Shown here: positions 12,148 through 40,590 of the stretch, piece by piece
How positions within the stretch are numbered: position 1 is the first letter of the stretch
Layout of the letters: each line of letters opens with the position of its first letter
The notes under the pieces: model-generated
Database searches by the model: none
What the model was told of the DNA's origin: nothing
What the model saw: only the letters and a program-made list of their open reading frames with translations
Program-made: the position numbers and the translations under genes
Source: a virus
IMG/VR virus record: IMGVR_UViG_3300030060_001384
Span: 1 to 50,594 of that record
Strand: one strand, 5' to 3'
Length of the DNA stretch: 50,594 bases

Positions 12148-12468
12148 ATGAAGATGTACAACAACGGCCAACGCAAGGCCATGATGTATGGTGGCATGTC
12201 AAAGCGTAAGCCGATGATGTACGGCGGCATGGCAGCCAAAAAGAAAAAGCCCCGCAAGAAGGCTCAAGCGGGGGGCATGATGACCACAACACAGGGTCAG
12301 CAGAATCAGATGCAAAATCAGACGATGCAGAAGCCGAAGATGCCGAAAATGCCGATGATGGGCATGAAGGAGGGCGGCAGTCTGAAGATGGTAAACGTAG
12401 ACGGTAGGATGGTCCCAGAGTTTGCCGCAGACGGCGTAGGTGCGAAAGACCTCAAGAAGCGCGGTTAG
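12148..12468 (+). CDS. Met/Lys/Gln-rich basic protein with MMYGGM repeats
   Basis: This 106-aa protein has a clear ribosome-binding site (AAAGGAG, 6 nt before ATG). The first third repeats MMYGGM after Lys/Arg-rich stretches. A Gln/Met/Lys/Pro region follows, then a more ordered C-terminus (SLKMVNVDGRMVPEFAADG). It is highly basic, like the genes at 40360 and 40595, and could bind packaged DNA, but this is inference. It is the last gene of the rightward late block and meets the leftward operon tail to tail with a 4-nt overlap. Confidence 0.6.
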   Translation: MKMYNNGQRKAMMYGGMSKRKPMMYGGMAAKKKKPRKKAQAGGMMTTTQGQQNQMQNQTMQKPKMPKMPMMGMKEGGSLKMVNVDGRMVPEFAADGVGAKDLKKRG

Positions 12469-27986: not shown

Positions 27987-28036
27987 CCGGTCAGTGACCG
28001 GCACTTGCCCCCGGCCATAGCGTCGGGGGTTTTTTT
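27987..28036 (+). terminator. intrinsic terminator after the early block
   Basis: CCCCCG (28008-28013) and CGGGGG (28024-28029) form a GC stem with a 10-nt loop, followed by seven T (28030-28036). Just upstream, CCGGTCA-G-TGACCGG (27987-28001) is a perfect interrupted palindrome that may add to the structure or be an operator. Position at the end of the early operon supports termination. Confidence 0.75.
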
Positions 28037-28511
28037 GTGGGCATGACCCACAATAATGGCTTGGCGGTTGAACTGGCGGGATAAATCCGGCGGTCTGTTG
28101 TTCGGGTAATGCTGCGCCGGGTGACCTCAAACGACAGCCCGGCGGGTTTTCGATATGGCAAAACTTGTCAGACCAGCAAGAAAGCCGCACACGTTTGACC
28201 AGTAAGGGCAGACTGTTGGTTCCCGGTCAGTAAATATTCTGTCAGGCGGTCAGATGGCGGATCGGCGATGGACAGCCCCTAATAGGGGGTCGCAAGGGCC
28301 ACCGGGGGGCTACCCATACCTGTATGCAACCCCGGCATATTTTTTGTATTTTTTTGTTTTTTGTATGGATAAGTGGGCATGACCCGTCATACAGCCCCGG
28401 CATGCTATGTCAGCATGACCCCCAGTGTAGAACTGAGGGGATATATCCCGGCGGGTACTAGACCCAGTCTACATACGGATGTTTACTTTGTCAAGTATTT
28501 TGTTTTTTCTG
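28037..28511. other. non-coding region upstream of terminase (repeats, T-tracts)
   Basis: No convincing gene lies between 28037 and 28511. GTGGGCATGACCC occurs at 28037-28049 and 28373-28385. CATGCT and AGCATG (28401-28417) form an inverted repeat, and CCCCGGCAT occurs twice. A strongly T-rich stretch (about 28341-28367) follows a GC-rich one. Such architecture next to the terminase genes would fit a packaging start site or replication origin; this is inference. Confidence 0.45.
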
Positions 28512-28540
28512 TTGACAATCAGTGTTACTAGCCCTAATAT
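28512..28540 (+). promoter_or_regulatory. sigma70-type promoter for terminase/late block
   Basis: A perfect -35 TTGACA (28512-28517) and TAATAT (28535-28540) are separated by 17 nt. Transcription from about 28547 would give a leader of about 110 nt before the small terminase ATG. TTGTCAA at 28488-28494 is the inverted copy of TTGACAA and gives a leftward TTGACA with TAGACT 16 nt away, so the element may be divergent. Confidence 0.55.
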
Positions 28541-28656
28541 TGTATCGTGGGCCGTTTCATACACGGTATATTCCCACAAATCTGTGCAATTACGCCTGTA
28601 ACCACGGTGAATAAGGCTGATTGAGACGCCCACACCCTCTTTTTTACATAAAAACA

Positions 28657-29058
28657 ATGAATCTGCTTCCAAAACAGTACAAAGAGCGGGTATTAACCCC
28701 TCAACAGAGCCAGTTTCTTGAGCTTTTGTTTGAAAACGGTGGAAATGTAACCCAAGCTGCCGTAGATGCGGGGTATTCCCGTGGTTCTGCCCAGTGGCTG
28801 AAGCAAACATTGGCAGATGAGATCATTGAACGCACAAAAAGCATACTTTCAGTAAATGCAATAAAGGCAGCAAACCGTGTAGTCTCCACAATTGACAATC
28901 CCGCCCCCGAACGAGGTGACGAACTACGGCTAAGAGCCGCTGAATCGTTGCTTAACCGCGTAGGAGTTGCAAAACAAGAGACACACAACCACAATGTACA
29001 AGCAATACACGGTGTGGTGCTGTTGCCCCCAAAGAGTGAAGTAGTGATTGATGGCTGA
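28657..29058 (+). CDS. terminase small subunit
   Basis: This 133-aa protein contains a helix-turn-helix near residues 25-50 (GNVTQAAVDAGYSRGSAQWL), typical of terminase small subunits that recognise the packaging site. It ends just before and overlapping the large terminase gene, the standard order. ATG 28657 is chosen over an upstream TTG at 28621. No clear Shine-Dalgarno sequence precedes it, which is unusual for this genome. Confidence 0.75.
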   Translation: MNLLPKQYKERVLTPQQSQFLELLFENGGNVTQAAVDAGYSRGSAQWLKQTLADEIIERTKSILSVNAIKAANRVVSTIDNPAPERGDELRLRAAESLLNRVGVAKQETHNHNVQAIHGVVLLPPKSEVVIDG

Positions 29059-30742
29059 ACAAGCCCCCAAGAGGCGCGGTAGACCTAAAAAAGACCCTAA
29101 CGCACCCAAGGCCACGTACAACCTGTCTACAAAGGAACGTGCCCGTCGTGCAGCTACAAAGCGGGTAAACGCCGCCAAGAAGCGTGCAGAGAAATCAACC
29201 AAAGCCGCAGAGGATAGACGCAGATATGCCCGAAAGCTTGAACAAACTACAACAAAAGTTGAAAAAGCTCTGGTTGGGAACGAGTCTGCCACAATCGATC
29301 TTGGGGATTTGGATGCTTTACCTGACGCGGTATCGGACCTTGTTGGAGAAAGTGAAGTTGTTTTCCAACCGAATGACGGACCTCAGACAGACTTTTTATC
29401 GGCGGGTGAGCGAGACGTACTCTACGGCGGTGCTGCCGGTGGTGGAAAAAGCTTTGCACTTCTTGCTGATCCGCTACGTTACTGTCACAATCCTAATCAT
29501 CGTGGTCTTCTTCTCCGTCGTACACTGGATGAACTTACCGAACTGATCGACAAGTCCCGCCAACTGTACCCCAAAGCCTTTCCCGGGGCAAAGTTCCGCG
29601 AATCCAAGTCAACATGGGTATTCCCCTCTGGAGCCACGATTTGGTTCACCTATCTTGACAAAGACAAGGACGTGACGCGCTTTCAGGGTCAGGCATTCAA
29701 CTGGATAGGCATAGATGAGATTACCCAGTATCCTACACCCTATGTCTGGGATTACTTGCGTTCTCGCCTTCGTACTACTGATCCTGAACTCCAGCAACAC
29801 CTGTACATGCGCTGCACAGCCAACCCCGGAGGAGTGGGTGGTTGGTGGGTCAAGAAAACATACATTGAAGATGTGGAACCAAACAAGCCTTTTCCTGCCT
29901 TTGATATAGAAACAAAAACACCCTTTCTGTGGCCCAACGGTCACGAGAAGGCAGGTCAGCCGTTGTTCTTTCGTAAATTTGTCCCGGCACGGCTGACCGA
30001 CAATCCCTACCTCATGGCAGATGGTCAATACGAGGCCATGTTGAGGTCGCTCCCCGAAGTCGAACGAAAGAGGCTTCTAGAAGGTGATTGGGACGTGGCG
30101 GAGGGAGCGGCCTTCCCCGAGTTTTCAAGGAGTCGGCACGTTGTCGAACATTTCGAACTACCTACCAATTGGCCACGAATACGGGCGGCGGACTACGGCT
30201 ATGCGAGTCCGTCGTGCGTTCTGTGGGGGGCTATTGACTGGGATAATAATATCTGGATATATCGCGAACTATATGTCAAACACTTGACAGCAGAGCAACT
30301 AGCTGATAAAATAATGGAAGCAGAACAACTTGATCCAACACCACACTACACCGTGTTGGACTCGTCGTGCTGGAACAAGACAGGATTCGGCCCGTCTATT
30401 GCAGAAACAATGATGCGTGTTGGTGTTCGTTGGACACCCTCTGATCGCAACCGTGTCCAAGGCAAGATGGAAATACACCGCCGTCTTGCTGACGATCCCT
30501 ACACAGAAGAACCACGACTACGTATCTTCTCCAGTTGCCAAAATATAATCAAGCAACTTGCTGGCATACCACTCTCCAAGTCAAACAGTGAAGACGTAGA
30601 TACAAAGTCCGAAGACCACGCCTACGATGCTCTGCGATATATGCTGATGACACGCATGAGCGGGTACACATCAATACACAAACAACTTGGTGCAATCAAG
30701 AGTCAAGTGTACCAAGTCCAAGATGAGACCTTTGGATACTGA
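29051..30742 (+). CDS. terminase large subunit (packaging ATPase-nuclease)
   Basis: This 563-aa protein is the motor that packages DNA into the procapsid and cuts it. Walker A is GGAAGGGKS (about residues 126-134), and Walker B is WIGIDEITQY. The C-terminal RNase H-like nuclease has ADYGY, TVLDSSCW and EDHAYDALRY acidic motifs. The N-terminus carries an AT-hook-like KRRGRPKKDP followed by a long Lys/Ala-rich helix, an unusual addition. ATG 29051 overlaps the small subunit stop by 8 nt. Confidence 0.93.
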   Translation: MAEQAPKRRGRPKKDPNAPKATYNLSTKERARRAATKRVNAAKKRAEKSTKAAEDRRRYARKLEQTTTKVEKALVGNESATIDLGDLDALPDAVSDLVGESEVVFQPNDGPQTDFLSAGERDVLYGGAAGGGKSFALLADPLRYCHNPNHRGLLLRRTLDELTELIDKSRQLYPKAFPGAKFRESKSTWVFPSGATIWFTYLDKDKDVTRFQGQAFNWIGIDEITQYPTPYVWDYLRSRLRTTDPELQQHLYMRCTANPGGVGGWWVKKTYIEDVEPNKPFPAFDIETKTPFLWPNGHEKAGQPLFFRKFVPARLTDNPYLMADGQYEAMLRSLPEVERKRLLEGDWDVAEGAAFPEFSRSRHVVEHFELPTNWPRIRAADYGYASPSCVLWGAIDWDNNIWIYRELYVKHLTAEQLADKIMEAEQLDPTPHYTVLDSSCWNKTGFGPSIAETMMRVGVRWTPSDRNRVQGKMEIHRRLADDPYTEEPRLRIFSSCQNIIKQLAGIPLSKSNSEDVDTKSEDHAYDALRYMLMTRMSGYTSIHKQLGAIKSQVYQVQDETFGY

Positions 30743-32736
30743 TGATCCTTACAGAAATTGAATTCATTACGAAGGCAGAAGCAGGCACCGTAACTGTTCA
30801 AGAAGTTGTGGATTACGCACTGGAAAATGCACAGCGACTTGATGCGCTACCGACGCACGTCAAAGGCGCTAAACGTGTTCTTAATAACATACGGGAGTTG
30901 GGCCTTGATCCTAACATGCCGTACGCTGAACTCCGTGATCACGCTTTCAAGTTCTCGGAAGAGGGAACTCCGGAAGGTGTTCCAATCAAAAACAGAGCGT
31001 ATAATTTACAAAATTTAGAAAGCATTGTTCGACCCATATTCGAAGATTACGGTCTAACAGCAAAAAAGACGTCTGACATTACCACCGATACGGGACAAGT
31101 TGTACCCGGAAAAACCATGTACCCGCAACTCGCGGGTAAAGGTTCAAAGACAGGCGCAGGAACCCAGCGTAGCACCGTAACCACTGGTGCCTTAGAAATG
31201 CAGGGGCTGTTGCCCAAAGCTGACTTAGATGAAATCTATAAGGAAGCAATGCCCCTGATCCGAGCCGAATATGGTGACAAGATCGCTGATGTTATTGAGT
31301 ATCACTACACCACTGGAAACAGACCCGAACAACTTCTAGGACTTACAGAGGACTCTAAAAAACGTCTTACAAAAAATAAAGTGACAATAGACACTAGAAA
31401 AAATACCATTAGTGTTGCAGAGAGAAAAGTAGTATCTAAAAAAGATAACAAGGGGCGTCCTCGCCTGACGTTTGACTTAGATTCTCCTACTGGTCAGCTT
31501 CTTAAAAGAAACTATGATGCAGCATCAACTGCGTCGTCCAAGCTGTTTGACGTTAGCGAAACAGAGTTTGATGAGGCGTTTGGCAAGCACATTAGTCCTC
31601 GACTAGAAAAATATGCAGATGTTTTACCTCTAGCAGTTACGGATAAAAAACGCGGCCCTGACGGAAAAATTATAGTTACAGAAACCCCTGTAACAACCAA
31701 GTCTGCTATTCGTCACATTATCCCTAGATATTTAGTTGAGGAATTTGAAGTTCCTGACAATCTTGTAGAAGGTATGATGGGCCATGTCAATGCTTCGACT
31801 CTTCGCAAGCATTACGTGGGCATGGTTCCAGAAAAAAGGATTCCTCAACTACTTGCCGATCCGTCTCAATTCAGTATCGATATTGACGCCAAAGGAAATA
31901 GAGGTGCAATCGATGTAGAAATGTTAAGCGAAGAGGATCGCTTAGAGCTTGCCGCTGCACAAAAGTCCGAAAGAATTGCAGAGGCGCAGGCAGGTCAAAA
32001 GAAAGCAGAGGCTGCGGGTGCGGCAGCAGAAAAAGAGCGGATTGAAACTCTCGCAAGTATATCATCAGAAGATGTCGAAGCAGCGGCACAAGCACAGGCA
32101 AACATAGCCGCTCGTACAGAAGAATTAGAACAACAATTCGAAACTGATGCAAAAATAAAAAGAAGACAAAACGCAGTAGAACGAGGGAATGACGCTAAAA
32201 ACGATATGATGTCTCGTTTTGGTCGTAAAAGAATTCCTCCCTCTCTTAAAACAGTTGCGCTGACGACGTTGGGCGCTGCTGTGACTGCTTTGGGTGCGTT
32301 TCCTCCTACAAGAGCAATAGCAAAGACTGCAGAAGTGGGTCTAGAGGCGCTAGGAGCGTACGGCTCTACCCAAGAGGGTCTCTCTACGCGAGAGCAAATG
32401 ATAAGAATGGGCGTGGCTCCTCCACTCGCTACGGCTGCAGGTGTAGCTAAAGGAGTTGCAGACTTTGTTTCTCCAGTGCCGGAACAGCCGGTTGTAGCTG
32501 ATCCCTTTTCCACGCGTCCTATTGATCGTATTGCTGCAGAGGATGCGGAGGTCGCCCAAAGCCTACAGGCTTCCGGTAAAATGGAACCCGTCGATATTCC
32601 TGATCCTGTTCCGTCAGAACCTCCGATGGCTGCACAGGGCTTTGCACAAAGACGGAATCAAGCACGCACAGCCGCAATACGGGGTGAAGAAACTCCGTTG
32701 GCTGAATCATTTCTTTATGGCGGTATTGTCCGCTAA
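30742..32736 (+). CDS. tyrosine recombinase-like protein with long C-terminal extension
   Basis: In this 664-aa protein residues 15-105 look like a helical core-binding domain. Residues 155-365 match the tyrosine recombinase catalytic fold: TTGNRPEQLLGL (Arg194), a Lys-rich hairpin (KVVSKKD, 229-235), SAIRH (Arg324, Ser321 in place of the usual His), GMMGH (His348) and TLRKHYVG (Tyr358). Residues 380-664 are Ala/Glu/Gln-rich coiled coil, then a hydrophobic stretch near 500-535 and a Pro-rich end, like virion proteins. It sits between terminase and portal. It may be an integrase, or a recombinase used in or delivered by the virion. Confidence 0.65.
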   Translation: MILTEIEFITKAEAGTVTVQEVVDYALENAQRLDALPTHVKGAKRVLNNIRELGLDPNMPYAELRDHAFKFSEEGTPEGVPIKNRAYNLQNLESIVRPIFEDYGLTAKKTSDITTDTGQVVPGKTMYPQLAGKGSKTGAGTQRSTVTTGALEMQGLLPKADLDEIYKEAMPLIRAEYGDKIADVIEYHYTTGNRPEQLLGLTEDSKKRLTKNKVTIDTRKNTISVAERKVVSKKDNKGRPRLTFDLDSPTGQLLKRNYDAASTASSKLFDVSETEFDEAFGKHISPRLEKYADVLPLAVTDKKRGPDGKIIVTETPVTTKSAIRHIIPRYLVEEFEVPDNLVEGMMGHVNASTLRKHYVGMVPEKRIPQLLADPSQFSIDIDAKGNRGAIDVEMLSEEDRLELAAAQKSERIAEAQAGQKKAEAAGAAAEKERIETLASISSEDVEAAAQAQANIAARTEELEQQFETDAKIKRRQNAVERGNDAKNDMMSRFGRKRIPPSLKTVALTTLGAAVTALGAFPPTRAIAKTAEVGLEALGAYGSTQEGLSTREQMIRMGVAPPLATAAGVAKGVADFVSPVPEQPVVADPFSTRPIDRIAAEDAEVAQSLQASGKMEPVDIPDPVPSEPPMAAQGFAQRRNQARTAAIRGEETPLAESFLYGGIVR

Positions 32737-32762
32737 CAACCCCAACGAACAGGGAGCTAATA

Positions 32763-32975
32763 ATGCAAAATCTAAACATGGGTGAAGCGTACATCATGAA
32801 CGCGGACAAAGTATCCGTAGACGATCAGATGGGCGCAGACAAATTGTACCGTGAAGGTCTGGAATTCGACACTCGCGCTCAGACTGGTGTTCTGACCGAA
32901 GACATGCCGAAGCAGATGACCAAGGGTGCAGTTGATCCTTCGCTGTTTAAGATGGCTGAAGAACGCGACTACTAA
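32763..32975 (+). CDS. small head-module protein
   Basis: This 70-aa acidic protein begins MQNLNMGEAYIMNADKVSVDD. AGGGAG lies 7 nt before the ATG. It lies between the recombinase-like gene and portal, in the place where other phages encode small head proteins. No motif. Expressed with the late block. Confidence 0.5.
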   Translation: MQNLNMGEAYIMNADKVSVDDQMGADKLYREGLEFDTRAQTGVLTEDMPKQMTKGAVDPSLFKMAEERDY

Positions 32976-32988
32976 GAGGTAAGTCGAT

Positions 32989-35115
32989 ATGGCTGACAAC
33001 TTTCTGGAACCGGCTGACGATACGGCAGTTCCGCTTGTAAACCCGGAGGAACAACTTCCGGGTCTAGCGGCGTACGTAAAGCGTAAGTTTGAAGACGCGG
33101 AGAACGGACGTTTCTCCTATGAACAGCGATGGCTGCAGGCGTACAAAAACTTTCGCGGCATCTACGATTCCACCACACAATACCGTGACTCCGAACGATC
33201 CAAGGTGTTCATCAAGATCACCAAGACAAAGGTACTTGCGGCATACGGGCAAATCGTAGACATTTTGTTCGCCAATAAAAAGTTTCCAATGGTTGTCGAG
33301 CCGACGCCCGTGCCAGAGGGCATATCCGAGTTTGCACACCTTCAAACTCCAGCGGATGAATTGGTAGATCAAGAAACGCAAGACATCTATGGTTTTCCGG
33401 GGGACGGTCGTGAACTTTTACCGGGAGCTATGAAAGCAACTCCATCTATGGATTTTTTAGGTGGTCTTAGTGGTCGATATGCTAACATGCCGCTTGCAGA
33501 GGGTCCGTCTCTCATGGGGGAACCTCAAATCAGCCCGGCTCAAAAGGCTGCACTAAATATGGAGAAACAAATCCATGATCAACTCCTCGATACAAGTGCT
33601 GTCAATGTTCTTCGATCTTCTATTTTCGAGTCTGCTCTTCTGGGAACTGGTATCGTAAAAGGACCGTTCAATCACTACAAGCGCGTTCATAGATGGAAGA
33701 GTGGTCCTGAAGGTCGAGTGTATTCTCCTTACGAAAAAACAGTGCCTCGCATTGAATACGTTTCTGCGTGGGACTTTCATCCTGATCCCTCCGCTACTAC
33801 GATAGACGATTGCGAATACGTAATCCAACGTCATCGCATGAATCGTTCGCAGTTCCGTAGCTTGATTGCACAACCCTTCTTTTACAAGGACGCAATTGAA
33901 GACTGCCTTGCAAAGGGACCAAACTACGAAGACAAGTATTACGAAGATACCATTCGCGAAGACGAGACCGAACCGTACTACCAAAATAATCGCTATGAAA
34001 TACTAGAGTATTGGGGTGTTCTTGACGGCAAAATGGCCGAAGAGGCAGGACTTGATGTTGCAGAACAGATGGACGAGTTTGATCAGGTACAGGTCAACGT
34101 ATGGGTGTGCGGTACAATGGTTCTGCGCTGCGTTCTGAACCCATTCACACCCGCACGTATTCCATATCAGGTGTTCCCCTACGAAATCAACCCTTATCAA
34201 ATTTGGGGTGTTGGTATAGCGGAGAACATGGAAGACGCACAGATGTTGATGAACGGCCACGTTCGTATGGCGATCGACAACCTCGCTCTCGCTGGCAATC
34301 TGGTATTCGACGTAGACGAAGCAAGTCTCGTGCCGGGACAGAACATGGACATTTTCCCGGGCAAGATATTCCGTCGTCAGTCAGGTGTTACGGGCACGGC
34401 AATCAACGGTCTCAAGTTCCCCAACACAGCGCCTGAAAACATACAGATGTACCAGATCAGTCGCCAGCTTGCGGACGAAGAGACAGGTCTACCGTCCATC
34501 ATGCACGGACAGACAGGCGTGACGGGCACAGGCCGCACAGCATCCGGTCTATCCATGCTGCTTGGCGGTGCAAGTCTGTCTCTTAAAACGGTCATTAAGA
34601 ACATTGATGATAGTCTCCTTAAACCGCTCGGCGAAGCATATTTCCAATGGAACATGCAGTTCAACGAAGATACCCCAGATATCGAGGGCGACCTAGAGAT
34701 CAAGCCTCGCGGCGTAGCAGCCGTCATGCAGAAGGAAGTGCGTAGTCAACGACTCACCACGTTGCTTCAGACCGTATCGAATCCGATGCTGGCACCGTTT
34801 ATTAAGATTCCAAACTTGATGCGAGAGCTTGCTATTGCACAGGACATTGATCCAGACAGCCTCGTCAACGATGTTAGTGAGGCACAAATATTCGCAGAGA
34901 TGTTGAAGGGACTAGCCAATGCTCAACAAGAAGCAAGCCAGCAAGGTCAGCCAACTGGTGACCAACAAGGAGGCGTGGGACAGTCTGGAGGAGTACCTCC
35001 GGGAGCAAATCCAGATGACGCTTCGGGCGTTGGTGGCGGCACAATCGGAACTGGAAGTGTTCCGGCTGCAGGGGAAGATAACTTCACTGGAACAGATCAA
35101 GGGGCTGAAGGCTGA
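32989..35115 (+). CDS. portal protein
   Basis: This 708-aa protein forms the dodecameric DNA entry ring. It has the podovirus portal look: RWLQAYKNFRGIYD near the N-terminus, an aromatic-rich wing, the WDFHPDPSATTIDDCEYV block, YQVFPYEINPYQIWGVGIAE, and a helical barrel with MHGQTGVTGTGRTASGLSML. The last 65 residues are Gln/Gly/Pro low complexity and overlap an out-of-frame gene (34919-35155), which may explain their composition. It follows the terminase genes and precedes the scaffold and capsid genes. Confidence 0.88.
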   Translation: MADNFLEPADDTAVPLVNPEEQLPGLAAYVKRKFEDAENGRFSYEQRWLQAYKNFRGIYDSTTQYRDSERSKVFIKITKTKVLAAYGQIVDILFANKKFPMVVEPTPVPEGISEFAHLQTPADELVDQETQDIYGFPGDGRELLPGAMKATPSMDFLGGLSGRYANMPLAEGPSLMGEPQISPAQKAALNMEKQIHDQLLDTSAVNVLRSSIFESALLGTGIVKGPFNHYKRVHRWKSGPEGRVYSPYEKTVPRIEYVSAWDFHPDPSATTIDDCEYVIQRHRMNRSQFRSLIAQPFFYKDAIEDCLAKGPNYEDKYYEDTIREDETEPYYQNNRYEILEYWGVLDGKMAEEAGLDVAEQMDEFDQVQVNVWVCGTMVLRCVLNPFTPARIPYQVFPYEINPYQIWGVGIAENMEDAQMLMNGHVRMAIDNLALAGNLVFDVDEASLVPGQNMDIFPGKIFRRQSGVTGTAINGLKFPNTAPENIQMYQISRQLADEETGLPSIMHGQTGVTGTGRTASGLSMLLGGASLSLKTVIKNIDDSLLKPLGEAYFQWNMQFNEDTPDIEGDLEIKPRGVAAVMQKEVRSQRLTTLLQTVSNPMLAPFIKIPNLMRELAIAQDIDPDSLVNDVSEAQIFAEMLKGLANAQQEASQQGQPTGDQQGGVGQSGGVPPGANPDDASGVGGGTIGTGSVPAAGEDNFTGTDQGAEG

Positions 35116-35155
35116 CTACGAAGCCGCAGTGACATCTAAAAATGACGATACTTAG
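34919..35155 (+). CDS. helical protein overlapping the portal 3' end
   Basis: This 78-aa protein begins MLNKKQASKVSQLVTNKEAW and continues as helix (LEEYLREQIQMTLRALVAAQ, then RLQGKITSLEQIKGL). AAGGGA is about 8 nt upstream of the ATG. It shares 197 nt with the portal gene in another frame. The portal part there is low complexity while this protein looks well ordered, so this is probably the true selected frame. Small helical proteins after the portal are seen in related marine phages, as far as I recall. Confidence 0.65.
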   Translation: MLNKKQASKVSQLVTNKEAWDSLEEYLREQIQMTLRALVAAQSELEVFRLQGKITSLEQIKGLKADYEAAVTSKNDDT

Positions 35156-37148
35156 CGATATCATTGCAGGAGAGTTGGGGGGTAGAGGTGCCGCTGCTTT
35201 GGTAGAGCGCACTCCTGTACCTAAAACGCCGTCAGCACAGGCTAGGCGACCTACTCCCGGTCCAATGGCTGCTCCTGATTTTCCAATGGGATATCGTAGC
35301 CCTTCACTAGAAGACAGCACAGACGTGCAACCTGCAACGCCTTTTGATCGCGATGACGATGATGATGGTCCCACAGGTGGAACAAGATACCCAGTGACCC
35401 AAGGAAGAGGTCCCGTATTTAACATATCTGTAGTCACACCGATGTCTAGCGCCCGACGCGCAGAAATAGACAGCAGAAATCAACGACTAGATGTGCAATT
35501 TGGTCAAGGTCTAGTCGGTATGAAGGACATTTATAATCCTGCTACGGGAAGGTATGCTGCGTCAGCACCTAAAATGGGCCTATTCGGAGTTCCTTTACTT
35601 GGTATAGGAGCAATGCTCGGCGATGCGTTTATGAAAAAGAAACAAAAAGAGGCTGCTTTATCTGCTGCCATGGGTAACGAAAACAGCGGCGTTATCATGG
35701 TAAACGATTCCGTAATTGCTGTCGTTGATGGTAAAGTATACGGCAATACACCTGATCATATACCTCGCCATCAAGTACAAAACGCTATTCGAGACTTTGT
35801 TAGAAATACACCAGCGTCCAAAAAGTCTGGAGACTATTATGATATTAGTCAGGGCGGACTAGGCAAAATTCCTCTTCCACAAAGTCCAGAAGAACAAAAT
35901 AGACCCATCATACCTCCACCTCCTCCTCCTCCGGCACCGCCGCCTGCCCCTTTCTACGAAGCAGGGCGCAGCGATGACTCTGATCGCAATTACGGTCGAA
36001 CTGAATATTCTATTAGCGGCGGTGCTGGGACATCACAAAAACCGGGTGGTTTTTCCATGAGAGCCGAGGGCGGTAGTGTGGAAATGGCCCGTGGGGGTAG
36101 TGCTGATCCTGTGCAGGGTAACGGTTTTGTAGACGGCTCTCCTGACAACTACACTAAATCCCAGACTGTAGCCGATGACGAGTATCGTCGATTACGTCCG
36201 GGATCATTTGTGATGAACGCGCCCATGACAGAAAAACTGCAAGAAGCAGGGGTGTTACCAACAGGGGTTGACAATCCAGCTAAAAAGAGTACAATAAAAG
36301 TAAACAAAGGCGGCATGATTGATGTTGCTTTGTCCAAAGGCGAATACGTCTTTGAGCCAGAAGAAGCCGAAGAAATTGGCTACGACGTTCTCAACAAGTT
36401 AAATGATCAGGGCAAAGCCGAGGTAGATCGTCGGCAAGCTTTGCAGGGAGGCGGAGAGCCACAACCTGCTGGCACTGACCTGTCTCGTATTCCTCCACTT
36501 GCTGCAGGTCTTCGTCCGAAGATTAAAAGAGATACTAAGCCAGAGGGCTTTATTTCTACACAATCTGCTACGCAAGATACCGGCATTCCGCCACTGCTTA
36601 TCAATGGGATCAACGTCGAGCAAGTTGGAAAAGCGTTGTCTCTCGTCGAAACGAGAGGATACGAAGATCGTAACGACGGCTACTTCTATACCCGTGCAGA
36701 TACTAAGAGCAATCCGTCATCTGCCTTTGGGCCTCTGCAGATCACAGGCGACACACTCGCTGCTATGTTGGAAGAATCGGATGAACTTCGTATCCAAATG
36801 AATGAAGACATCAATCCGGGTTTTGCTAACTACCTTGAGAGATATGCAACAGACGCACGTAATAGAACTAACTTTCGAGCGTTTGGATTAATATACGAAG
36901 GCGAAAAGGGCAAGAAAGCGAAGGGACGTGCGCCTACTGCAGCAGAAAAAGAGATGTACAAAGGCTTAGGCGCAGGATCGATTTCTCTGGAAGATCACAA
37001 GAAATATTACCCTCTTCTTGCAAACATATATTTACGTTACAAAGCCGGAATGAGCGACTCCGAAGAAGATATGGTGCGGAGACATTTCGGTAACGACAAA
37101 TCTACACAGAAATACCGTGATGCTAAAATTGAACTCGGTATTAACTGA
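35142..37148 (+). CDS. virion protein with C-terminal lytic transglycosylase-like domain
   Basis: In this 668-aa protein the middle includes a Pro tract (PPPPPPPAPPPAP) and the common phage motif LSKGEYVFEPEEA. From about residue 490 it resembles a lytic transglycosylase: SLVETRGYE with a candidate catalytic Glu near 505, then SSAFGPLQIT. It may cut peptidoglycan during DNA entry. Its position between portal and scaffold, not with the internal proteins at 2297-12136, is noteworthy. It starts inside the preceding small gene. Confidence 0.65.
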   Translation: MTILSDIIAGELGGRGAAALVERTPVPKTPSAQARRPTPGPMAAPDFPMGYRSPSLEDSTDVQPATPFDRDDDDDGPTGGTRYPVTQGRGPVFNISVVTPMSSARRAEIDSRNQRLDVQFGQGLVGMKDIYNPATGRYAASAPKMGLFGVPLLGIGAMLGDAFMKKKQKEAALSAAMGNENSGVIMVNDSVIAVVDGKVYGNTPDHIPRHQVQNAIRDFVRNTPASKKSGDYYDISQGGLGKIPLPQSPEEQNRPIIPPPPPPPAPPPAPFYEAGRSDDSDRNYGRTEYSISGGAGTSQKPGGFSMRAEGGSVEMARGGSADPVQGNGFVDGSPDNYTKSQTVADDEYRRLRPGSFVMNAPMTEKLQEAGVLPTGVDNPAKKSTIKVNKGGMIDVALSKGEYVFEPEEAEEIGYDVLNKLNDQGKAEVDRRQALQGGGEPQPAGTDLSRIPPLAAGLRPKIKRDTKPEGFISTQSATQDTGIPPLLINGINVEQVGKALSLVETRGYEDRNDGYFYTRADTKSNPSSAFGPLQITGDTLAAMLEESDELRIQMNEDINPGFANYLERYATDARNRTNFRAFGLIYEGEKGKKAKGRAPTAAEKEMYKGLGAGSISLEDHKKYYPLLANIYLRYKAGMSDSEEDMVRRHFGNDKSTQKYRDAKIELGIN

Positions 37149-39695: not shown

Positions 39696-40382
39696 ATGAA
39701 CTATATAACAAGCAACGTACCCTACTTCAAAGCATGGGTACGTAGAGAATACACAACGAATCACGACCGCTATCAGGGTGAATTTCTACACGCAATGGTG
39801 ATAGCAGTCACGACTCTGCCGATGCGTACCCTATCCTTTCAGGTGTTGTTTACAGGGTGTGACGAGGAAGAGAATGTACATGGCGGTGCAATGTGGGCAC
39901 GTATGCCTCTCACAGCACTCGTAGGTGACACGCCCTTCGATGAATGGCCCGAACCTATGCCAACGTACTTAGCCCAGCCGTGGGACTGTCAGTCACATCA
40001 CCACTCGGTGTTTGTATTGAACAGAGCCACACCGTGTCCGTGGTTGGCAAAGATAGACGGAGAGTTCTATCCTGCCAAGTACTACTTCACAGTAGACTAC
40101 ACAGACACAGAAGTAGCAGATGACCCTGCACAACACAAACAGAGTCATGTGCTAGAACTACTCGATGCGGGTAAATGGACAGGCAACATCGTTGCATTAC
40201 CTAACAACAGAGTACGAGTCACCAACCCTGCGTGGTTTGTGACAGGCGAAGGACCACCAGACTTTGCTCCAAGTCAGTGGGTCCACCACTCGAAACAAGA
40301 CCCGAACTACGTAAGTGACACGGCACGGGTATTCGACAACCTCTATGCGGAGAGCGATTATGAAGAAGATGATGAAGAGTAA
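39696..40382 (+). CDS. conserved-looking late protein, unknown function
   Basis: This 228-aa, Trp/His/Tyr-rich protein has VLFTGCDEEENVHGGAMWAR, LAQPWDCQSHHHSVFVL and an acidic end (SDYEEDDEE). No known fold. The start at 39696 is chosen because AGGAG lies 9 nt upstream; ATG 39678 lacks one. It is the first gene after the internal promoter. The acidic C-terminus overlaps the start of a very basic protein gene. Confidence 0.6.
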   Translation: MNYITSNVPYFKAWVRREYTTNHDRYQGEFLHAMVIAVTTLPMRTLSFQVLFTGCDEEENVHGGAMWARMPLTALVGDTPFDEWPEPMPTYLAQPWDCQSHHHSVFVLNRATPCPWLAKIDGEFYPAKYYFTVDYTDTEVADDPAQHKQSHVLELLDAGKWTGNIVALPNNRVRVTNPAWFVTGEGPPDFAPSQWVHHSKQDPNYVSDTARVFDNLYAESDYEEDDEE

Positions 40383-40590
40383 GGGCATGAAGCGCGGCGG
40401 CAAGATGAAAGCCAAAGGTATGGCTAAGGGCGGTATGCGCGGTGGCCGGAAAATGATGATGAAGAAGGGCGGCAAGGCTATGAAGGCCAAGGGCATGGCA
40501 AAGGGTGGTAAGCGCGGTGGCGCAATGACCCTTGCATCGATCCGTGCTGCTGCCAAAGCAAAGGGCTACAAGCTCGTAAAGATGGCGTAG
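40360..40590 (+). CDS. Lys/Met/Gly-rich basic protein with internal duplication
   Basis: This 76-aa protein contains almost only Lys, Met, Gly, Arg and Ala in its first 50 residues. It holds a duplicated unit (KAKGMAKGG followed by M/K-RGG), then a short ordered tail (LASIRAAAKAKGYKLVK). It may condense DNA or bind RNA. It overlaps the previous gene by 23 nt. Comparable composition is seen in the gene at 12148. Confidence 0.6.
   Translation: MKKMMKSKGMKRGGKMKAKGMAKGGMRGGRKMMMKKGGKAMKAKGMAKGGKRGGAMTLASIRAAAKAKGYKLVKMA

Follow-up and report, generated by a model that had tools for sequence, protein, structure and literature searches.

Why does a marine phage encode a tyrosine recombinase-like protein between its terminase and portal genes, when phage tyrosine recombinases are usually regarded as early or lysogeny enzymes? 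The gene lies in the window, by which we mean the whole stretch of 50,594 nucleotides analysed here (IMG/VR record IMGVR_UViG_3300030060_001384). The phage belongs to an uncultured marine, HMO-2011-like clade, whose large terminase subunits (TerL) are at least 61% identical to that of the window. From the single sequence, the initial annotation described a tyrosine recombinase-like domain fused to a virion-like tail and encoded in the head-morphogenesis block. Both the gene and its placement are borne out. The TerL stop and the recombinase ATG share one base (junction TACTGATG), and portal and capsid genes follow, placing the gene in a late head and packaging block and not among early or lysogeny genes (Table 1). 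No lysogeny regulator was matched in the ten window ORFs scanned.

Table 1. Coordinates of the recombinase gene, its modules and its neighbours in the window
Feature	Position	Strand	Remarks
Terminase small subunit	28621..29058	+	Adjoins TerL upstream; phrog_51/4044/641, best of these 8e-7
Terminase large subunit (TerL)	29048..30742	+	phrog_979 2.9e-60; PF03237 1.7e-8
Recombinase ORF	30742-32736	+	ATG start; 664 aa
Head module, residues 1-384	30742..31893	+	Core-binding and catalytic domains of tyrosine recombinase (predicted)
Arg194 codon	31321..31323	+	Catalytic, box I; 37/37, 123/123 in wider set
Lys229 codon	31426..31428	+	Hairpin, catalytic-Lys candidate; GK lysine in 36/37 relatives; one position later in the window
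SxxR box, Ser321 to Arg324	31702..31713	+	Ser at position of usual first His; both 37/37, R324 123/123
His348 codon	31783..31785	+	GH motif; 37/37; wider set H 86, R 36, S 1 of 123
Tyr358 codon	31813..31815	+	Nucleophile; 37/37, 123/123 in wider set
Tail module, residues 385-664	31894..32733	+	Helical start, then mildly hydrophobic, Pro-containing, low-confidence; ends SFLYGGIVR
70-aa ORF separating recombinase from portal	32763..32975	+	Kept across 27 aligned loci
Portal protein	32989..35115	+	PF23899 SU10_portal 2.3e-26; phrog_332 2.7e-77

This arrangement recurs in other phages, where homologues next to portal genes had been proposed as a check. Among 49 loci with the head type of the window, TerL lies upstream in 48 and the portal gene downstream in 44, the remainder running off the contig. 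Wherever both neighbours are visible in relatives, the gene sits between them, in a fixed position downstream of TerL, which it overlaps or nearly overlaps start to stop. We refer to this position as the slot.

The predicted fold of the N-terminal head is that of a tyrosine recombinase. An AlphaFold model of the window protein, confident over most of residues 1–105 and 151–380, matches Xer, lambda Int and Cre, in agreement with the comparison to Cre/XerD suggested earlier. VIA-align gave Z scores of 10.7 for an archaeal Xer, 10.3 for XerH and 9.5 for the lambda Int core, and all matches listed for the model are tyrosine recombinases or type IB topoisomerases. The top match has an RMSD of 9.6 over 242 residues, and single-domain matches measure 3.4–3.6 Å over ~150 residues. 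Foldseek with the whole model reached an E-value of only 0.015; the head of locus L062, which has been swapped (see below), matched lambda integrase at 7.5e-5 in Foldseek and with a Z score of 12.5 in VIA-align.

At the level of sequence profiles, the window protein alone matches no Pfam entry (E up to 1) and its PHROG matches are all weak and unrelated, so the family is needed to prove the fold. The phrog_1 integrase profile is matched by 8 of 9 relatives of the protein (best 1.9e-10). In a set of 49 slot proteins, comprising that of the window and 48 of the 50 found in the TerL survey described below (L063, identical to L061, and the partial L069 were omitted), PF00589 is found in 24 at E up to 0.1 (best 2e-30) and phrog_1 in 25 at E up to 0.01; the telomere-resolvase Pfam family is absent among the families that these sequence profiles listed. 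Searches for direct relatives in named phages yielded chance-level matches only for P0001 (E 6–7) and none for the L026 protein or for L101, a slot protein without a recombinase. A PDB sequence search with profile A1 returned a single weak, unrelated match.

The catalytic residues are strongly conserved. The window head type comprises 50 sequences including that of the window, 45 of them full-length, which reduce to 37 distinct proteins after merging 8 exact duplicates. Arg194, Arg324, His348 and Tyr358, as well as Ser321 at the usual first His of HxxR, all named in the initial annotation, are each invariant in these 37 proteins. The Lys hairpin of that annotation is likewise recovered as a Gly-Lys motif in 36 of them, the lysine of the window itself being shifted by one position to K229. 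Across 123 divergent heads that could be aligned, R194, R324, Y358 and F269 are the only columns conserved at 100%; this count leaves out 7 of 130 heads, namely six classical N-terminal recombinases misplaced by the alignment and the doubtful L107. With all 130 included, R194 is present in 127, R324 in 126 and Y358 in 128. L019 (phiM6), whose slot is unrelated, was excluded from the head counts. In the separately aligned L062 cluster, R185, K210, R281, R304 and Y313 occur in 19 of 19 proteins. The first position of HxxR is S, T, A, K or a gap in heads other than the window type. His is usual at this position in tyrosine recombinases, and substitutions occur within the family; since the residue is not invariant there, we did not use it to exclude membership. 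Judged from sequence conservation and the models, the head almost certainly retains the catalytic chemistry of a tyrosine recombinase and is predicted to be active.

What distinguishes the locus is that the recombinase head is exchanged wholesale, as a cassette, between near-identical phages. Phages with 97–99% identical TerL DNA can carry heads that are only 12–24% identical. L047 and L062 share 98.9% DNA identity up to codon 2, have unalignable heads, and are 98.4% identical again from codon 450/446. Between the window and L213, TerL is 97.1% identical, the heads are unrelated and DNA homology resumes at about codon 618. Heads below 30% identity were found in 16 of 23 locus pairs with a TerL flank of 96–98% identity, and in 7 of 25 pairs with a flank of 98% or more. 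Each head type is under purifying selection (dN/dS 0.009–0.315 in 16 of 17 pairs, those computable), and the tails are under looser selection and also reassort. Polymorphism of this kind could not have been revealed by the earlier reading of a single sequence.

REC-family loci were collected by head similarity, and we therefore based head-independent counts only on a survey of TerL relatives (best 80 of 597) and a scan for the TerL-end pattern. Among these best 80 of 597, every visible slot in the clade is occupied by a long ORF (50/50). The pattern scan, among the matches listed, added 116 new loci, and in 101 of them TerL ends at the pattern; a full slot protein of 300 aa or more is present in 72 of the 101, 19 are cut by the contig end and the remaining ones carry short ORFs in more distant phages (TerL 42–49%). 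Gathered regardless of head, at least 102 distinct full slot proteins are available; the R-R-Y triad can be aligned in 90, and another six are classical tyrosine recombinases. In several clade members (L092, L097, L098, L101 and L111) the slot protein lacks a recombinase; the proteins of L097, L098 and L101 are homologous to the C-terminal half of L099/L100. The slot clade holds no isolates; the best isolate TerL has 58% identity over the aligned part.

The C-terminal tail (approximately residues 385–664) had been described as coiled coil, hydrophobic and Pro-rich, unlike integrases. A Pro-containing, non-integrase tail with long predicted helices (397–438 and 442–492; low model confidence otherwise) agrees with this, but its hydrophobic stretches are mild: the best 19-residue Kyte-Doolittle mean is 1.47, so there is no obvious membrane segment. 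The tail is present in every full-length window-type member and measures 209–280 aa in all 37 distinct relatives. A tail HMM run against all ORFs outside the slot genes found weak matches only (0.012 or worse), and an independent virion protein thus gives the tail reading no support. As for a C-terminal delivery tag shared with other virion proteins, we claim a tendency at most. A motif consisting of F and a following residue that is hydrophobic or similar, located in the C-terminal 12 residues, is found in 93 of the 135 distinct slot proteins, as against 13–15% of windows inside slot proteins; it is also present in 9 of 39 other ORFs of the window stretch and in 8 of 26 post-portal proteins, and the slot proteins are mutually related. 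Moreover, several pairs of loci (L036/L039, L022/L026, L043/L040 and L081/L082) have heads that are 87–98% identical yet strongly different tails, which weakens the view of the tail as a constant delivery tag.

How might these features fit together? We propose that the gene encodes a site-specific tyrosine recombinase that would be made late, alongside TerL, and is fused to a C-terminal tail. Exchange of the head would give the enzyme another DNA sequence to cut and join. As site choice differs among tyrosine recombinases that share one chemistry, the heads would be swapped to change the target DNA, and a switch in DNA-site specificity is the probable meaning of the exchange; genes that recognise a variable target typically show turnover of this wholesale kind. 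The tail may hold the enzyme inside the particle or at its surface, with the result that the enzyme would enter the next cell together with the genome. For carriage in the virion, which was already considered in the initial annotation, we put the chances at slightly below even. In the new cell, the enzyme would recombine the incoming genome, either by integration at a host site or by circularisation, and would replace the stand-alone integrase that some slot-less relatives encode beside their replication genes. Taken as a whole, this chain, from a late-made recombinase with heads swapped for specificity to delivery with the genome in place of an integrase, is tentative. The same applies to the more general idea of a polymorphic, particle-borne recombinase whose heads are traded like the variable parts of effectors, and whose substrate, early in infection, could be the entering genome, host DNA or the DNA of a rival.

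Alternatively, the protein could be an ordinary integrase of lysogeny that has moved into the late block, expressed when needed and not part of the particle, with head swaps exchanging integrase and attachment site together. Related temperate phages are well known to swap integrases. Slot recombinase and stand-alone integrase were not found together in the records checked, and their distribution is complementary: of four isolates checked that are devoid of a slot recombinase, three encode a stand-alone integrase, and no integrase besides the slot gene was found in 19 slot-clade records with profiles that miss many slot recombinases, including that of the window. Furthermore, the slot-less relative CRP-3 integrates into tRNA-Met, according to excerpts of PMC6918029. 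To this extent the data fit the displaced integrase of the initial annotation. However, the gene is coupled to TerL and distant from the early genes, the long tail is present throughout the full-length window type, and no prophage of the clade was found in 84,980 genomes. A prophage scan with the head family gave 68 pattern matches and 0 relatives, and one with TerL gave 34 matches that included two relatives (34% and 51%); the 51% relative, L144, has an empty slot. This absence is weak evidence, because temperate empty-slot relatives such as CRP-3 left no clear trace either.

Nor does the search for a tRNA-type attachment site lend support to a displaced integrase. An attP-like sequence matching a tRNA, which had been suggested as a check, was not seen in the window with a T-arm motif test that does detect the tRNA 3'-end-like sequence of CRP-3 (L264:3195, minus). 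In the window the test gave one match only, within a coding gene, and in the slot regions 3 matches in 212,735 bases. Rfam did not report a tRNA in the CRP-3 int region including the tRNA-like fragment, and the T-arm pattern test alone is therefore informative; the window has no tRNA genes and no Rfam matches. Two weak, short inverted repeats of the loxP kind occur near the gene (28000-35200). A noncoding attP-like element in the gap between recombinase and portal was considered and rejected, as the gap encodes the conserved 70-aa ORF. In swapped loci, the head is flanked on both sides by ~99% identity, so a matching attP would have to sit within the head gene itself or at some other place in the genome. 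With neither a prophage nor a tRNA-type attP, integration has no direct support, and we regard a displaced integrase as rather unlikely.

By analogy with baculovirus VLF-1, the protein might instead process DNA during packaging, resolving branched or multimeric DNA at the portal and staying in the particle. The gene position between TerL and portal would suit such an enzyme, and VLF-1, a member of the tyrosine recombinase family, is located at the ends of the nucleocapsid and linked with genome processing (excerpts of PMC11654684 and PMC6669607). Such a housekeeping role is ill-suited to swaps for 15%-identical versions between near-identical phages, and L092, L097, L098, L101 and L111 would have to package with a recombinase-less slot protein; we consider it unlikely. 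Slightly less probable still is an ejected weapon aimed at specific sites in the host chromosome, prophages or satellites, with an arms race maintaining variety as in polymorphic toxins. Cassette polymorphism among near-identical phages, with the chemistry kept and other surfaces free to vary, is what such a weapon would show, but the idea has no target site, immunity partner gene or virion support on its side. A non-catalytic protein of the same fold, such as a repressor like phi3T SroF with variety reflecting immunity groups, is very improbable: repressors do vary between close phages and SroF (9rgl and 9rd5) matches the L062 head fold with Z scores of 10.0 and 9.0, but a repressor needs neither the R, R and Tyr found in all 123 heads nor the R, K, R, R and Y of the L062 cluster, and a late position alongside TerL is unlike one.

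When comparing the slot protein of our preferred reading, a late-made and possibly particle-borne recombinase, with known tyrosine recombinases (PF00589; lambda Int, Xer, Tn1549 Int and Cre), the fold, the R-K-x-R-H-Y set and the combination of core-binding and catalytic domains are the same. Differences are the serine that replaces the first His in window-type heads, an arginine instead of the second His in 36 of the 123 aligned heads, a C-terminal tail of 200–280 aa, the late location and cassette exchange. The stand-alone integrases of HMO-2011-type phages (HMO-2011, CRP-1/2/3 and CRP-603) are tyrosine recombinases from the same phage group. Unlike the slot recombinase, they measure 292–383 aa (three isolates) and do not adjoin TerL: in HMO-2011 the gene directly precedes a primase-like one, and in the CRP phages it lies upstream of replication genes. 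In single-sequence comparisons at E 1e-4, the integrases of HMO-2011 and CRP-603 did not match slot heads.

Here, a tyrosine recombinase is found in a packaging operon, with its chemistry kept across ~15% identity next to a flanking gene that is 97–99% identical. Head exchange at this locus was not found in print, as far as our literature searches reach. These dozens of natural recombinases, with the same chemistry and presumably different sites, make DNA-site specificity directly studiable. Should virions carry the protein, nature would offer a case of a phage particle delivering a recombinase, and, as far as literature searches and excerpts of PMC11654684 show, this would be the first tyrosine recombinase known in a tailed-phage particle. 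The closest likeness in this respect is VLF-1, which is built into the baculovirus particle near its end (excerpts of PMC11654684 and PMC6669607). Whereas VLF-1 is a conserved core gene, the slot protein, a putative virion component, is a swapped cassette. The internal proteins (IPs) and Alt of T4 and DarA/DarB of P1 are targeted to the capsid and ejected. By analogy, such a system would account for a late enzyme with a targeting segment, the putative role of the tail, and a variable cargo.

The slot gene, named for its place between the genes for the terminase large subunit (TerL) and the portal, encodes a tyrosine recombinase, as judged from its predicted fold and catalytic residues. The window protein alone has no Pfam match, and its identity was settled through its relatives, 13 at first and then 49 by profile search. 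In a set of nine proteins that included the window's, eight matched the phrog_1 integrase family (best 1.9e-10) and three matched PF00589 (best 1.9e-5). The catalytic pattern read in the initial annotation is borne out: R194, S321, R324, H348 and Y358 (window numbering) are each invariant in 37 of 37 distinct full-length members with the window's head type (head, residues 1-384). The hairpin Lys is found in 36 of them and is shifted by one position in the window. Conservation of the Arg and Tyr residues extends to a wide alignment of 123 heads, where only R194, R324, Y358 and F269 are 100% conserved. The AlphaFold model of the window protein (27 sequences) is confident over most of residues 1-380, and the proposed structural comparison agreed, with VIA-align matching Xer, XerH, Tn1549 Int, lambda Int and Cre (Z 8-10.7); Foldseek on this model was weak (E 0.015).

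The window, a 50,594-base virus record, comes from an HMO-2011-like marine podovirus. Its DNA polymerase has a DnaJ zinc domain match, reported as a hallmark of that group (PMC6918029). Its TerL is 56% identical to that of HMO-2011, 54% to Roseobacter phage CRP-603 and 50% to pelagiphage HTVC115P. The gene order initially noted recurs in the 49 relative loci: TerL precedes the slot gene in 48 and the portal gene follows it in 44, the remainder ending before the neighbour is visible. Across relatives, identity to the window is 71-93% for TerL, 69-85% for portal and 75-98% for capsid, whereas the slot protein reaches only about 34-46%.

Features of the window and of related loci (L-numbers)
Feature	Position	Strand	Remark
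Slot gene (ORF, 664 aa)	30742-32736	+	ATG overlaps TerL stop
Small ORF, 70 aa	32763-32975		between recombinase and portal genes; conserved in 27 aligned loci; below size cut-offs
Portal gene	start at 32989		
Post-portal gene, window	35142-37148		end possibly transglycosylase-like, by eye
Post-portal gene, relatives	L002:6688-9234; L032:8484-10616; also L005, L006, L066, L072		L002, possible ADP-ribosyltransferase-like stretch, by eye
Short Lys/Met/Gly-rich proteins	12148-12468; 40315-40590		late region; repeated MYGGM or KGGK-type motifs
tRNA 3'-end-like sequence, CRP-3	L264:3195	minus	near primase gene
TerL–portal interval, Sinorhizobium phage phiM6	L019:2980-6829		annotated phoH and SGNH/GDSL hydrolase genes; unrelated slot filling
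TerL, HMO-2011-like phage contig (Blastopirellula MAG)	L144:6747-9338		in-frame, intein-like insertion
Split capsid gene, same contig	L144:14657-16642		intervening 234-aa ORF, homing-endonuclease-like by eye

We surveyed TerL-bearing contigs chosen without regard to the downstream gene (best 80 of 597). A long ORF (at least 300 aa; four end at a contig edge) follows TerL in all 50 visible slots where TerL is at least 61% identical to the window's, and 21 of 22 loci at 52-59% with a visible portal have no slot ORF of at least 150 aa, the exception being L131 (175 aa). Many slot proteins (L080, 4.9e-15; L081, L077, L075, L074 and others) share the window's tail (residues 385-664), but their heads have no HMM similarity to it. 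Pfam and PHROGs identify roughly half of 49 slot proteins as integrases. When similarity was followed transitively with phmmer, 126 of the 136 distinct full slots fell into a single component. Of the 102 distinct full slots listed by searches that did not depend on the head, 90 have an aligned R-R-Y triad and six are classical tyrosine recombinases with the motif read by eye (L099, L100, L104, L108-L110), integrase matches being seen for L099, L108 and L110. L107 is doubtful as a recombinase, and no recombinase was seen in L092, L097, L098, L101 and L111. The C-terminal half of the recombinase-bearing L099/L100 has relatives in L097, L098 and L101.

Comparison of near-identical phages indicates that head differences reflect exchange rather than drift. 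The DNA of L047 and L062 matches at 98.9% across TerL as far as codon 2; their heads cannot be aligned, and identity returns, at 98.4%, from codon 450/446. L025/L243 (98.5% before the head, 98.4% after) and L156/L202 (98.2%, 96.2%) follow the same pattern; the window is 97.1% identical to L213, then 80.0% from codon 618, and 97.0% to L203, then 85.1% from codon 635. Across 120 dereplicated loci, a sample biased towards equal heads because it was partly gathered by head similarity, heads are <30% identical in 7/25 pairs with TerL flanks at least 98% identical, 16/23 at 96-98%, 11/26 at 94-96% and 58/78 at 90-94%; few pairs in these bands have heads of intermediate identity. The swapped L062 head is likewise modelled with a tyrosine recombinase fold (lambda Int is matched by Foldseek at E 7.5e-5), and R185, K210, R281, R304 and Y313 are retained throughout the 19 members of its cluster. 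Tails reassort too: L036 and L039 have 98% identical heads and very different tails. N-terminal extensions of several types (~125-145 aa) precede different heads (L035, L037, L069, L075, L078, L079), so the slot gene may have three exchangeable parts. The post-portal gene, strongly variable chiefly in its C-terminal part, appears to be a second polymorphic late gene.

Within head types, dN/dS is 0.009-0.315 for heads and 0.09-0.87 for tails, where computable. Since the chemistry is kept while other parts change freely, selection probably acts on the choice of DNA site. Its tail, together with a late position coupled to TerL, suggests a recombinase that would be built into, or delivered by, the phage particle. 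An ordinary lysogeny integrase, displaced into the late block and not carried in the particle, seems somewhat less likely: no prophage of the clade was found among 84,980 genomes, and a tRNA-type attP, for which the initial annotation proposed a search, was not found in the window, though the same test detects the tRNA-like CRP-3 sequence, presumably that phage's attP, in agreement with its published tRNA-Met site (PMC6918029). The only integrase mentioned in a 2022 survey of HMO-2011-type phages lies upstream of the replication module, and that survey records lysogeny genes as absent from subgroups IV-X. No integrase besides the slot gene was found in 19 slot-clade records, and the isolates HMO-2011, CRP-603 and ctYwJ313, all without a slot recombinase, carry a stand-alone one; the slot enzyme may thus have replaced it in integration or circularisation. 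In HTVC115P no stand-alone integrase was found. An enzyme processing DNA at packaging, like baculovirus VLF-1, is improbable, as an enzyme with a housekeeping role would not be exchanged in this way and a recombinase is missing from several clade members.

Our literature searches turned up no account of this slot. The nearest analogue for a recombinase beside packaging genes is VLF-1, which is reported to be a virion component (PMC11654684, PMC6669607).
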